Of a stretch of DNA of 64,000 bases, positions 48,085 to 64,000 are shown one piece after another. Location: assembly GCF_034424215.1 (NCBI RefSeq), contig NZ_CP139960.1:3100001-3164000 (forward strand). The letters run 5' to 3'. Under the pieces are notes generated by a model that made no database searches, was not told where the DNA came from, and worked only from the letters and a program-made list of their open reading frames with translations. Every line of letters begins with the position of its first letter. Within the stretch, counting starts at the first letter, position 1. The position numbers and the translations under genes were made by a program. The stretch comes from Niabella yanshanensis (GTDB lineage Bacteria; Bacteroidota; Bacteroidia; Chitinophagales; Chitinophagaceae).

Positions 48085-49698
48085 ATGACCCAACGCGCCC
48101 TCAACACCCGCTTGTCCTTTTGGGCATACTTCCTTTTTACGCTTCAGGCTTTTTCACAAACTCCCGACATTGGCTACCAGGCAGTAATTTCAGGCAATGG
48201 CCTGGCAGCACCCATTGACATTGTAAATGCCGGTGATGGTACCAACCGGCTATTTGTTGTACAGCGCAGCGGTACGATCCGCGTATATGATGATAATCTC
48301 GCTTATATCCAGGACTTCCTTACGGTTAGTGATGTTGGTACCGCAGGGGAGGGTGGCTTGCTCAGCCTGGCATTCCATCCTGATTATGCAACCAATGGCT
48401 TCCTGTTTGTTTACTATACCCGTCCCGACTTCAGCCTGGAAGTGGCCCGTTACACCGTAAATAGCGGCAATGGTAACGGCGCTAACCCCGCTTCAAAGCA
48501 AATTGTTATCAATATCCCTCATCCCGGTGAGGATAATCATAACGGAGGAAAGATACTTTTTGGTCCTGATGGATACCTGTACCTGGCTACCGGAGATGGT
48601 GGTGGCGGCGGCGACCCGTCCAATAATGCCCAGAATGGAAATAGCCTGCTCGGTAAAATGCTTCGCATCAATGTCAATACGCTTCCCTATACCCTTCCCC
48701 CTGATAATCCTTATGTAGCAGACGCCAATGTAAGAGATGAGATCTGGGCCCTAGGCCTTAGAAACCCTTTCAGATGGAGTTTTGACCGGGCTAACGGAGA
48801 TATGTGGATTGCCGATGTAGGGCAGGGCGCCCAGGAAGAGATCAATTACGTGCCTGGCCCTAATACAGGAAGTGTTAATTACGGGTGGAGATGCTATGAA
48901 GGTTCATTACCTTATAATACTTCAGGGTGTTTGCCGCAGTCAAGTTATGTAAGCCCCATTTACACTTACGGCCGCGATAATACCACAGGGGGTCAATCCG
49001 TAACCGGAGGTTTTGTATACCGGGGCTCGGAATTCTCCTCCCTAACGGGGTATTATATTTTTGCTGATTTCCTGTCTGGTAACCAGTGGGTGATCACGCC
49101 CGACAGAACGCAGATGCTTCAATTACCGGATGCCGGCTTTCCAACGGGTATTGTAGCTTTCGGCGAAGCCGAGAACGGAACGCTTTATGCCGCCTCATTG
49201 TCTGGTAATGCGATTTATAAGGTGTTGGATAATGCTGCATTGCCGGTGACATTTGGAACGATTAAAGCCACCCGAAGAAAAGCCAACTTATATATCAACT
49301 GGACAACTGAAGCGGAAAACAATAATAGCCATTTTGATATTGAAGGATCGGTTGATGGTAAAACCTTTGCAGCAATTAAAACGGTGGAGACCAAAGCCAT
49401 CGACGGGTATAGCAGCAGCACTATAAATTATGAACTAACGATCGGTAGAGACAACCTGGGTATGATGCTGGGTATTTCCTTATTAGCGGTATTGACTTTT
49501 GGCGGGTTCAGGTCTGCTAAAAAGCGGGAACAGGCATCGCTGATAGTATTAGCCATTCTGATTATTGTCAGCGCCTGCAATAAAAGTGATGTAGCAAAAG
49601 ATCCTGAAGATGAGACCTTATTTATACGCATCGCCCAGGTTGATAAGGATGGGGCCAAACGGTATTCGCAAACCGTGCAGGTTGTAAATGAAAAGTAA
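48085..49698 (+). CDS. PQQ-dependent sugar dehydrogenase-like protein with C-terminal lipobox/transmembrane module
   Basis: A 537-residue protein with signal peptide (to about FSQ) and a six-bladed propeller (about 25-380) of the soluble aldose sugar dehydrogenase type. GGLLSLAFHPDY, EDNHNGGKILFGPDGYLYLATGDGG, LGLRNPFRWSFD and DVGQGAQEEINY are the PQQ and Ca sites of this family. After residue 385 comes an unusual module: an FnIII-like half domain (386-455), TM helix (about 457-474), basic loop RSAKKR, second hydrophobic helix (485-497), Cys498 in a lipobox-like VSAC, and a strand pair with RIAQVDKDG. The same module ends the M43 gene at 63007. It should oxidise a sugar in the periplasm or at the surface. 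ATG 48085 is preferred over GTG 48022. Confidence 0.88.
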   Translation: MTQRALNTRLSFWAYFLFTLQAFSQTPDIGYQAVISGNGLAAPIDIVNAGDGTNRLFVVQRSGTIRVYDDNLAYIQDFLTVSDVGTAGEGGLLSLAFHPDYATNGFLFVYYTRPDFSLEVARYTVNSGNGNGANPASKQIVINIPHPGEDNHNGGKILFGPDGYLYLATGDGGGGGDPSNNAQNGNSLLGKMLRINVNTLPYTLPPDNPYVADANVRDEIWALGLRNPFRWSFDRANGDMWIADVGQGAQEEINYVPGPNTGSVNYGWRCYEGSLPYNTSGCLPQSSYVSPIYTYGRDNTTGGQSVTGGFVYRGSEFSSLTGYYIFADFLSGNQWVITPDRTQMLQLPDAGFPTGIVAFGEAENGTLYAASLSGNAIYKVLDNAALPVTFGTIKATRRKANLYINWTTEAENNNSHFDIEGSVDGKTFAAIKTVETKAIDGYSSSTINYELTIGRDNLGMMLGISLLAVLTFGGFRSAKKREQASLIVLAILIIVSACNKSDVAKDPEDETLFIRIAQVDKDGAKRYSQTVQVVNEK

Positions 49699-49769: not shown

Positions 49770-49819
49770 CCTTTTTCCTTTTCCTTTATAATTCATACCC
49801 CTTCTTTAAAAAATACACC

Positions 49820-49827
49820 TACCTTCG
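49820..49827 (+). promoter_or_regulatory. -7 promoter element of the B12 operon
   Basis: TACCTTCG, one mismatch to TAnnTTTG, is followed at once by the start of the cobalamin riboswitch. Confidence 0.5.
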
Positions 49828-49837
49828 CGCCGCATTG

Positions 49838-50010
49838 GTTTAATACGCCTTCCGGGCGCTATTGATTAAAAGGGAATCAGGTGCAAATCCTGAACAGTCC
49901 CGCTACTGTAAGTTCTAAAAAGACATTTTGACAAATCTTAGCCACTGTTCTGAAAACCGTTCGGAACGGGAAGGCTGCTCAAAATGAGAACAAGTCAGGA
50001 GACCTGCCAA
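49838..50010 (+). promoter_or_regulatory. Cobalamin (AdoCbl) riboswitch
   Basis: The aptamer shows the conserved series: AAAAGGGAAT then GGTGCAAATCC, CAGTCCCGCTACTGTAA, GCCACTG, GGGAAGGC and finally AAGTCAGGAGACCTGCC, which contains the B12 box. The order and spacing match the AdoCbl riboswitch class. It lies about 115 nt before btuB and should repress the uptake operon when B12 is plentiful. A stem AAGCTT/AAGCTT with bulge at 50022-50049 after the aptamer has no T run, so translation control or another mode is likely rather than simple termination. Confidence 0.93.
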
Positions 50011-50124
50011 AGCAGACAGATGTTAAGCTTTCGTGGACTGAAGCTTGAACGCAAATGCTTTTATAGCAACATATTTGTTTTCAGTTGTTCGCAAAGCTGT
50101 TTGATTCATTTAATCAAATAGTTA

Positions 50125-52143
50125 ATGCAGTATGTTTTAAAAGCCCTGGCAGGCTTATGTTTATTGCTGTTTATGATACTAAGCCCTCACCCCGTTGGCG
50201 CACAATGGCGTGATACCATTATTACCCGGGAGTTAGAGGAAGTGCAGGTGAGCGGCAGCAAAAAGAGGTCTTTGGTCGCATCGGTCTCGCCAGTTCAGGT
50301 ACTATCAGGCAATGCATTGCAGCGGTTAAACAGTTTTTCTATCGCAGATGCGATCCGCTACTTTTCGGGTGTGCAATTAAAGGACTATGGCGGCATTGGC
50401 GGATTAAAGACCGTAAATGTGCGAGGCATGGGAACACAACATGTGGGTGTATTTTATGATGGAATGCAACTGGGCAACGCGCAAAACGGCATCGTCGATC
50501 TTGGGAAGTTTTCCCTTGACAATATTGAGGAAGTATCGTTACACAATAGTCAAAACCCGGACATCTTTCAATCTGCCAAAAGCTTTGGCGCTGCATCATC
50601 CATTTATATAAAAGCCCTGCCACCCACCTTTAAGGACAGCCAATCATACCAGGTAAAGGCTGCGTTTAAAACGGGTTCATTCGGGCTTATCAATCCTTCT
50701 ATACACTGGCAACAAAAACTGGCCGACAATATAGCAACGACAATCAGTGCAGAGCTTATCAATGCACATGGCCGGTATAAAACCCGCTATAAAAAATGGG
50801 CTTACGACACCACCATTGTTCGGCAAAATGCCGGCGTTGCCTCTCAAAGAGTAGAGTTGGCGGTTCAGGATATTAATAAAGACAGCGCCACTCACTGGAA
50901 AATACAAGGGTACTTTTATAACTCAGAGCGAGGCTTACCCGGAGCCATTGTGGCAGAACGTTTTTACAATTCGCAACGGCTATGGGATCGAAACTTCTTC
51001 ACACAGGGCTCTTTGCAGCACCGGTTTTCGCCGCGCTACAGGCTGCTGCTTCAATTTAAATATGCAAATGATCTTACCCGCTATTTAGATACTACCATCA
51101 AAAAGATAGGCGGCGCCCCATTACATAATACTTACAAACAACAGGAATATTACACTTCTTTGGTAAATGAATTTGAACTCAAAAAATGGTGGACGTTTTC
51201 ATTGGCGGCAGACTGGACCCTACACCAGATGCAATCCAATTTAGATGATTTCGCTTATCCTACGCGTCAAACAAAATTAGTGGCTGTTGCAACAGAACTA
51301 TCCTGGGAACCTGTGACTATATCCGGAAATTTACTAGGCAGCTTTATCAATGAAAAAGTAAAGCAAGGCAAAGCCGCTGACGACAAACAGGAATTGACGC
51401 CGGCAATCAACCTTTCCTGGATGCCCTGGGAAGCCATTCCCCTTAATTTTCGCTCCTTTTATAAACGCATTTTCAGAATGCCCACATTCAATGATTTATA
51501 CTACACCATTGTTGGCTCCGCTACGTTAAAACCCGAGTACTCAAACCAGTATAATATTGGCGCCCAGTACAACAAATACTTCTCACCAATAAAGCTGGAC
51601 TTCAACGTGCAGGCAGATGTTTACATCAATAAAGTCCAGGATAAAATTATTGCTATCCCTGCTAATAATTTATTCCGGTGGAGCATGATCAACCTGGGTG
51701 CTGTCGAAATAAAAGGGTTAGATGTTCATGCATCCTATTTCCTTACACTAAAGGAAAAAATTGTATTAAATGGCACGCTCAATTATTCCTACCAGGAGGC
51801 GGTTAATAAAACCACAGGGCAGCGATCTTACGGCAACCTGATCCCTTATGCTCCTAGACATAGTGGCTCGGCAACCTTGCAAGTGTTTTACCGGAACTGG
51901 GGTGTCAATTATAGTTTTATTTATACAGGCGAGCGATATATGCTACCCGAAAATGATCCGCAAAACTATCTGATGCCCTGGTACACACATGACCTGTCAC
52001 TTACAAAAAAACTGGTTCTAGGAAAAACAGCTCTTGTTGTAGCTGCAGAGGTTAACAATCTTTTTAATCAATACTATGATGTGGTTATCAACTATCCCAT
52101 GCCGGGCCGCAATTACTTAATAAAGCTTTCTTTCAATTTATAA
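50125..52143 (+). CDS. btuB: TonB-dependent vitamin B12 receptor BtuB
   Basis: A 672-residue outer-membrane receptor with signal peptide (ending VGAQ), a TonB plug (about 38-160; LEEVQVSGSKKR, FSIADAIRYFSGVQLKDYGGIGGLKTVNVRGMGTQ is the typical start) and a beta barrel ending in the aromatic residue pattern IKLSFNL. Assignment to B12 comes from the riboswitch and the BtuG-type neighbour rather than from plug sequence. It imports corrinoids with energy from TonB and hands them to an inner-membrane BtuCDF not seen here. The downstream gene follows after 9 bp. Confidence 0.9.
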   Translation: MQYVLKALAGLCLLLFMILSPHPVGAQWRDTIITRELEEVQVSGSKKRSLVASVSPVQVLSGNALQRLNSFSIADAIRYFSGVQLKDYGGIGGLKTVNVRGMGTQHVGVFYDGMQLGNAQNGIVDLGKFSLDNIEEVSLHNSQNPDIFQSAKSFGAASSIYIKALPPTFKDSQSYQVKAAFKTGSFGLINPSIHWQQKLADNIATTISAELINAHGRYKTRYKKWAYDTTIVRQNAGVASQRVELAVQDINKDSATHWKIQGYFYNSERGLPGAIVAERFYNSQRLWDRNFFTQGSLQHRFSPRYRLLLQFKYANDLTRYLDTTIKKIGGAPLHNTYKQQEYYTSLVNEFELKKWWTFSLAADWTLHQMQSNLDDFAYPTRQTKLVAVATELSWEPVTISGNLLGSFINEKVKQGKAADDKQELTPAINLSWMPWEAIPLNFRSFYKRIFRMPTFNDLYYTIVGSATLKPEYSNQYNIGAQYNKYFSPIKLDFNVQADVYINKVQDKIIAIPANNLFRWSMINLGAVEIKGLDVHASYFLTLKEKIVLNGTLNYSYQEAVNKTTGQRSYGNLIPYAPRHSGSATLQVFYRNWGVNYSFIYTGERYMLPENDPQNYLMPWYTHDLSLTKKLVLGKTALVVAAEVNNLFNQYYDVVINYPMPGRNYLIKLSFNL

Positions 52144-63006: not shown

Positions 63007-64000
63007 TTATTCTGAAACCACCGAAACCACGCGGCTGAATTTAACAGAGCCGTCTTTATCTACCTGCACAATTCTTACATTTTTAATATTATTGTCGTCG
63101 CTGTTCACTCCCGCCGGATCCCCTTTCTGGCAGGCGATGAAAATACCGGTAGCTATCAGCATTGTAAGCACCCATTTTCTGTTGCTCCTAAAGCTAAACA
63201 GTGAGAAAATCGCCACCAGTGTTGCGCCCAAAGAAACAACCGCGCCTGTATTGTCAACGGAAATAGTGTAGTTGAGTGAAGAAAAGGAAGTACCGTTCGT
63301 CGCTTTGCTATCTAGTTTTGCGATTCGGGCAAAGTTTTCGCCATCCAAAGAGGCTTCAACAAAGAAGTGATCGTTATTAGTTTCTGTTTTCCAGTCTACA
63401 AAATATTATCATTTTTTATTTTAGCTACAACTCTGTCAAACACCACCGGTGTTCCCAAGTTGCAGGAGTTTTCTCGTAATATGGCAAATTATCATTACCG
63501 TAGCCGTAAGATTGGTAGGTTAGGTTGCTGAGCGTAACATTCCAGGGACCGATATCAGTCAGAATGTTAAATGTATTGGTTACCGGTATTTGAGTTGTAT
63601 TGATTTTAACCGCTGTTACAGGGAGTGGCGTACAAGCCACAGAGGTCATTAGCCTCCGCGTGCTATATTTAACGCGGCCATCATTCTTGTGCTTTGCCTG
63701 CCGTAAACCGGTCCAGACAGCCGCTATAACCCATAATATTCTCTGGTATACCATTGTAGGGTTGTTATTGTAGCAGGGATTAGGATCAGTGTTGAGTATA
63801 GGGCAGGCCCTCCATGCAAGAGGTTCTTTACCGGATCGGTATCGCAAACCTTATCGCCAATTGTTGTGCAGTTCGTCCCATCTGTCATAGGCGGGCAATT
63901 GGTTTGATCACCACCTTCAAAAGTGTGATAAAGCCCAAAAGCATGTTCCAGCTCATGTGTAAGAGTTGTGGAGGTAGAAGATACCATCTGAGAAGCAATG
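63007..64000 (-). pseudogene. M43 metalloprotease (cytophagalysin-like), multiply frameshifted, with C-terminal lipobox/transmembrane module
   Basis: The gene enters from beyond the right edge. The visible part begins with the zinc motif HELEHAFGLYHTF (HExxHxxGLxHTF) of M43 enzymes, then NCPPMTDGT and GDKVCDTDP. After this at least five frame changes are needed: near 63800 (to NPCYNNNPTMV), near 63745 (to ENIMGYSGCLDRFTAG), near 63685 (to RMMAALNIA), near 63663 (to STRRLMTSVACTPLP) and two before the tail (near 63455 and in a T run near 63393). The last 130 residues (VDWKTETNNDHFFVEASLDGEN to the stop) are an FnIII-like half domain, TM helix, RSNRK loop, second hydrophobic helix, Cys (codon 63130-63132) in FIAC, and RIVQVDKDG strand pair. 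The same module is in the sugar dehydrogenase. Confidence 0.85.

Follow-up and report, generated by a model that had tools for sequence, protein, structure and literature searches.

The question raised by this locus is how a secreted enzyme may be held at the cell by a tail in which a lipoprotein-like signal lies near the C-terminus. The locus is in a stretch of 64,000 nucleotides of Niabella yanshanensis (contig NZ_CP139960.1, positions 3,100,001 to 3,164,000), which is called the window here and whose own numbering is used throughout. A PQQ-type glucose/sorbosone dehydrogenase is encoded at 48085..49698 on the plus strand, the open reading frame from ATG 48085 giving 537 aa that open with an SPI-type signal peptide and close with the module under study. 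Pfam GSDH (PF07995) matches residues 63-352 with an E-value of 4.8e-43, in the numbering of a 558-aa ORF that starts at GTG 48022. The Pfam search of the tail gave no known domain, and the weak matches to UBact, SpoIIIAC and DUF5336 were under the cut-off and were dismissed. The dehydrogenase gene is followed by a cobalamin riboswitch (RF00174, 112 bits; 49819-50025, plus strand), beyond which a TonB-dependent-receptor-like gene lies at 50125.

The dehydrogenase tail reads, in order, LPVTF, NWTTEAENNNSHFDIEGSVDGKTF, a first TM helix, RSAKKR, a second TM helix, VSAC-NKSD, FIRIAQVDKDG and the stop codon (49696-49698); all its features are on the plus strand. Its first part (module residues 1-70; 49237..49446) holds strands A, B, C, C' and E of an FnIII domain in the AlphaFold2 (AF2) model. 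TM helix 1 (residues 71-92; 49447..49512) was assigned from the AF2 helix, hydropathy and column counts, and the basic loop RSAKKRE (49510..49530) from the net charge across 68 aligned copies. TM helix 2 (49531..49575) corresponds in spacing and −1 residue to an SPII-type h-region and ends in the lipobox IVSA. The lipobox Cys (residue 114; 49576..49578), which is invariant in the 68-copy alignment and is followed by x-Lys with the Lys at +3, opens the predicted lipidated C-terminal piece (residues 114-153; 49576..49695), a linker with FnIII strands F and G, as read from AF2 and dN/dS. We infer that TM helix 1 runs from out to in and that the basic loop is cytoplasmic.

The second copy of the module in the window (L013) is the tail of an M43 metalloprotease at 63007..63409 on the minus strand, in which the hairpin, the Cys and the F-G part are open. 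It runs RSNRK, FIAC-QKGD, VRIVQVDKDG and stop, with the Cys codon at 63132-63130 (minus strand). The first-pass annotation had described these two tails as alike, and all the elements that it listed for both are present in the sequence; the likeness has to be qualified at one point, since the M43 gene (63010-63999, minus strand) is broken by stops and frame changes from about 63400 to 63990 and its LPV-type opening is hence in a different frame from the rest. The reading frame is still open from the middle of the FnIII domain to the stop. In N. hibiscisoli the corresponding tail belongs to an intact ORF of 697 aa (L066), with a dN/dS of 0.11 for the M43 module against it, and the contig of L066 also carries the matching dehydrogenase tail (L049), at a distance of about 14 kb, as in the window.

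Genome-wide distribution of the module was obtained by a search of the closed 5.54-Mb chromosome, which gave 18 copies in the source genome (E 6e-4 to 1e-96), and 78 further loci were found in other Niabella and a few relatives; chance is therefore excluded as the source of the shared tail. The Cys and the Lys two residues on are present in 18/18 of the source-genome copies. At the N-terminus the intact hosts have an ordinary SPI-type signal peptide, which ends in ..AQ in many of them; they are otherwise unrelated, comprising GSDH, DUF285 repeats, DUF6923/CshA-like, RCC1-like, beta-helix, SprB/Gly-rich, BNR and other proteins. The occurrence of the module in other proteins had been set beforehand as a test of the anchoring idea, and these many unrelated secreted hosts are what was found. 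Nine of ten Niabella genomes carry the module, genome G191 being the one without it. Outside the genus a few single copies were found, in Ferruginibacter and other Chitinophagaceae, the fused ones in the latter being L024/L140 (G286), L025 (G244), L141/L208 (G382), L099, L115 and L118. Among 395 genomes of the phylum there was no full-length match outside Chitinophagaceae, and the plasmid search gave a single T9SS FnIII match and nothing else.

The tail is a single FnIII domain whose E-F loop is longer by about 51 residues, namely a TM helix, a basic loop, a second TM helix and [SGA]-Cys-x-Lys. In the AF2 model the N-terminal strands are at residues 5-14, 17-28, 30-38, 45-51 and 63-70 (block pLDDT 83-97) and the C-terminal strands at 129-136, 141-143 and 150-152 (pLDDT 97 over 131-150), with two helices of pLDDT 65-79 between the strand blocks. 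A structure prediction of the full tail had been proposed as a check, and the model closes the FnIII domain across the hairpin with F-G at pLDDT 97. VIA-align of the module model (1-153) to FnIII domains aligned 85-100 residues, examples being 2ic2_A (Z 10.0, 97 residues) and 3mpc_A (Z 9.9, 90 of 96 residues), and the modelled topology is the seven-strand one of FnIII, completed by F-G. Foldseek alone ranked FnIII domains, e.g. Ihog, near the top, with no match of any kind at E 0.001 or better. The split FnIII-like fold of the first-pass annotation is thus retained in that a hairpin interrupts an FnIII domain, with the correction that the hairpin is an insert in the E-F loop. In T9SS-positive relatives the same FnIII domain is contiguous and the sorting tail comes after it; the E-strand Tyr and the F-strand Arg are 15 residues apart in 25/25 T9SS-type FnIII domains measured, none of which has a hairpin, against about 66 in the module.

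The proposal had been made to depend on conservation of the Cys, and this residue is 100% conserved (68/68 aligned copies). The −1 residue is S, G or A in 67/68 copies (S 63%, G 24%, A 12%), which agrees with the internal SPII-type lipobox read at first: the module has the Cys and the small −1 residue of an SPII lipobox, in Niabella at an internal position about 40 residues from the C-terminus and not at the precursor N-terminus. In the same 68 copies the +3 residue is Lys in 94% and Arg in 4%, acidic D/E after the Cys is found in about 45% at +5 and in few at +4, the net charge of the loop is positive in every copy (mean +3.7, minimum +2), and the last basic residue stands on average 16.5 aa from the Cys, which itself is about 17 residues ahead of the F-strand Arg. 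The likeness of the stretch after the Cys to a surface export signal, as suggested earlier, holds for C-x-K, which stands at the position of the Capnocytophaga lipoprotein export signal (optimum C-X-K-(D/E)2-X; PMC5080379), and is weaker for the acidic part, which is only partly kept. Ordinary Niabella lipoprotein starts resemble this stretch and K+3 is the commonest there too, in a small sample of 24 pattern-picked candidates of which some are false.

The two membrane helices behave differently from these parts. Between the window and N. hibiscisoli the dN/dS is 0.07 for strands A-E and 0.10 from the Cys to the end, against 0.38 for TM1 with the loop and about 1.1 for TM2 (few sites), which points to strong selection on the A-E and Cys-to-end parts and weak selection on the TMs. 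In the aligned copies the TM sequences are free to vary if they stay hydrophobic. A Gly in TM1 (module residue 79; 49471-49473) is present in 85% of copies, and helix packing or a protease site was considered for it. This Gly is the only conserved residue in TM1, and the analysis turned up neither a second site of cleavage nor a dedicated protease.

On these grounds the tail is probably a C-terminal lipid-anchoring module, in which a lipidated F-G peptide would hold the enzyme by fold completion. The module may have originated from the FnIII domain that relatives carry ahead of the T9SS sorting tail. The host protein would be exported by Sec/SPI, TM1 would stop transfer, and TM2 would then begin in the cytoplasm like a normal lipoprotein signal; the Cys would be lipidated by the housekeeping Lgt and LspA would cut before it. 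The 40-residue lipidated F-G peptide would remain paired with strands A-E, and the enzyme would be tied to the lipid through fold completion with no peptide bond. Lipidation and cleavage at the Cys are taken here from established lipoprotein biology, and the location of the product is likewise a prediction. Genomes G279 and G191 have two LspA each and the source genome has one; the number of copies does not follow the module, because G191 is without it. The weakest step is that the hairpin would have to be cut off or degraded later: cleavage at the Cys alone would leave the enzyme attached to the TM hairpin, and for the lipid to be its only anchor TM1 would have to be removed by a second cut. 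If TM1-TM2 is kept, the product would be an inner-membrane protein, and if it is removed by a second protease, a lipid-anchored complex.

The simplest alternative is that the tail is a membrane hairpin and nothing more, an inner-membrane anchor through TM1-TM2 with the FnIII domain intact above it and with a Cys that may be lipidated, with no cleavage and no split domain. Such an anchor accounts for both TM helices, the loop with its basic residues and the FnIII that is complete in the AF2 model, and the cleavage at the Cys is a step that we infer; however, a hairpin has no need of the invariant Cys, the lipobox −1 residue and the Lys at +3, and it fits poorly with relatives in which the hairpin is absent from one gene and an ordinary N-terminal SPII signal is present on another. 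We consider this reading unlikely, though it is the best of the alternatives.

These relatives were met when the C-terminal half of the module was used as the query and short ORFs were obtained in other genera, where each locus read consists of two genes side by side on one strand. Gene A encodes a secreted protein whose FnIII domain stops, by a stop codon, directly after strand E and which has no hairpin. Gene B encodes 51-64 aa with an ordinary N-terminal SPII lipoprotein signal, Cys-x-Lys and strands F-G. Five such loci (L142, L143, L148, L145 and L210, in genomes G009, G233, G110, G154 and G077 respectively) belong to genera g10 (G009, G110, G233) and g77 (G077, G154), and the gap between the genes is 3-100 nt in all five. 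The gene-A products fall into two unrelated families, a repetitive protein for which no Pfam match exceeds the cut-off and an esterase-like protein, which looks like a secreted esterase from its GLSSGGD motif and has no Pfam support. Gene B alone as a family-wide query (391 genomes) gave just these five loci besides fused copies, so the two-gene version is rare (5/391 family genomes), and it occurs in T9SS-positive genomes. None was recognised outside the family in 345 genomes of the phylum, the leftover matches covering, by matched range, the lipoprotein start only or the FnIII end only. Candidates in G380 and G203 were rejected, one being an unrelated lipoprotein and the other a short secreted protein of ordinary type whose domain is contiguous, and no module was found for the one in G037. 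In the source genome L017 (C1:1829808) and L018 (C1:1229265) were rejected as two-gene forms as well, being short decayed remnants of the module with no in-frame host protein.

Between G009 and G233 gene B has 28 synonymous against 7 non-synonymous changes (dN/dS 0.036), from which we judge it to be a real gene; the dN/dS of gene A is higher, at 0.158. Synonymous sites in g77 have reached saturation, and gene A and gene B both show a pN/pS of 0.25 there. The two genes of G110 share a frame, and AF2 of the read-through chain gives a single FnIII with F-G at pLDDT 94; this run is not an independent docking test, because it used a single chain and fused homologues were in the alignment. The two-gene version would be the same device minus the hairpin, namely a secreted A-E protein with a small F-G lipoprotein whose lipidation is predicted. 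This natural split is the strongest evidence for, and the main reason to take seriously, the split anchor, and at the level of sequence it supports the earlier suggestion that a lipidated F-G peptide may complete the half domain in trans. It also favours removal of TM1-TM2 in the fused form, since the two-gene form has no hairpin. The further suggestion of anchoring without a covalent link gains from it as well, and is limited by the hairpin, to which the enzyme would remain fixed once the cut at the Cys is made.

It is also conceivable, at a clearly lower probability than for the bare hairpin, that the tail is a release device, in which an Lsp cut at the Cys splits the FnIII domain and the halves part; the peptide with the lipid would then be a by-product, and shedding or turnover of the enzyme would follow. 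Lsp could plausibly cut at this Cys, and in S. aureus a membrane protease trims the remnants of lipoprotein signals further (PMC7157817). Against this reading, the F-G strands rank with the most constrained parts (dN/dS 0.10, and 0.036 in gene B), and a gene B kept as its own gene beside gene A argues for use of the pair. A PEP-CTERM-like tail of TM1 and basic loop, cut before TM1 by a dedicated exosortase- or sortase-like transpeptidase with the rest as passenger, is less probable again. The order of a TM and then basic residues is that of such tails, and weak LPXTG_anchor and PEP_CTERM similarity was seen; against this, exosortase (PF09721) gave no match in the source genome and one sub-cut-off match in six Niabella genomes tested, the aligned copies have no conserved motif ahead of TM1, and the invariant Cys and conserved F-G strands lie after the loop. 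A misread ordinary FnIII with T9SS sorting tail, for which only the homology of the A-E half to the FnIII preceding T9SS tails speaks, is refuted by the lack of TIGR04183 matches in the module tails, of SprA in the genus and of a hairpin in the 25 T9SS-type FnIII domains.

The state of T9SS in the genus also corrects the context in which the tail was first placed, that of domains ahead of T9SS sorting signals, as the module has expanded in a genus that lost T9SS. SprA, the T9SS translocon, is absent in 10/10 Niabella and present in 33/33 other family genomes tested. Matches to TIGR04183 (Por_Secre_tail) number 0-1 per genome in six Niabella against 27-121 in six relatives, with 0 in the source genome. 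The link of T9SS loss with module expansion is a correlation only (n = 1), because it is one event in one clade. Genome G191, a Niabella, is without SprA, T9SS tails and module alike, so the module is not an obligatory replacement of T9SS, and it also exists outside T9SS loss, because G286, G244 and G382 carry SprA. As a further step, Lol and surface-export functions might take the nicked complex to the outer membrane and so replace the T9SS anchoring lost in Niabella. The wider proposal, that there is a new anchoring principle in which FnIII completion with a small lipidated strand pair, from the own precursor or from a neighbouring lipoprotein gene, gives a non-covalent lipid tether which in Niabella replaced T9SS and can deliver to the surface, is put forward tentatively, at a little under even chances.

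The nearest description in databases is NCBIfam NF058595 (invert_tail, 'lipo-invert putative C-terminal anchoring domain'), a model of 113 positions. Module residues 45-118 are in register with profile positions 6-75 (C'/E, TM1, loop, TM2, Cys), and the roughly 39 profile positions after the Cys are equal in length to those of the module. Its name implies an inverted, C-terminal lipoprotein-like anchor and says nothing of an FnIII in two parts or of a two-gene form. Among the models that match the tails this one is the most frequent, at sub-threshold level (34/68 and 16/34 members); the best score among the matches listed is 19.0 bits (others 13.5-17.3) against a curated cut-off of 37, and the tails are hence not members. 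The NCBIfam curators probably saw a related tail elsewhere. Within the library searched there was no paper on NF058595, an internal lipobox, lipo-invert or a split FnIII lipoprotein. The earlier statement that no described sorting system works in this way is accordingly softened: no paper was found, but NF058595 exists.

Lipoproteins of the Lgt/LspA route with a Bacteroidetes export signal share with the module a basic n-region, a 16-aa h-region, [SGA]-Cys and C-X-K (PMC5080379); the module differs in that the signal is internal, behind a first TM, and the lipid would be on the last 40 residues and not on the enzyme N-terminus. MYXO-CTERM is a C-terminal tag with an invariant Cys, a TM and basic residues, for which lipidation and cleavage are proposed; there the Cys comes before a single TM and stays on the protein, and the authors note the lack of a lipobox and the inverted topology (PMC11980579). 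In the module the Cys comes after TM2, in a lipobox, and a 39-residue F-G piece, half of a folded domain, follows. MYXO-CTERM is the nearest studied analogue, with opposite topology. T9SS type A cargo proteins are secreted too and carry, close to the C-terminus, an FnIII of this same family (A-E and F-G sequences), whereas the module has no Por_Secre_tail, carries a hairpin in the E-F loop and occurs in a genus without T9SS. Completion of an Ig/FnIII-like domain by a strand from another polypeptide is familiar from donor-strand complementation in chaperone-usher pili and from SpyTag/SpyCatcher; here, unlike those systems, the donor is a predicted lipidated F-G pair from the own precursor or a neighbour gene, and the purpose would be membrane anchoring. 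The split-fold anchor stands a real chance of being new as a principle.

If the split anchor holds true, it would represent lipid anchoring in which anchor and cargo are separate polypeptides joined by fold completion. The two-gene form makes this idea directly testable with two small genes, and natural split FnIII pairs may be of use in protein engineering. Lipopeptides of 40 residues would be predicted, which a proteomic survey would fail to link with the enzymes depending on them. The split anchor would also explain in concrete terms how former T9SS cargo stays bound to the cell in a Bacteroidota lineage that has lost T9SS.
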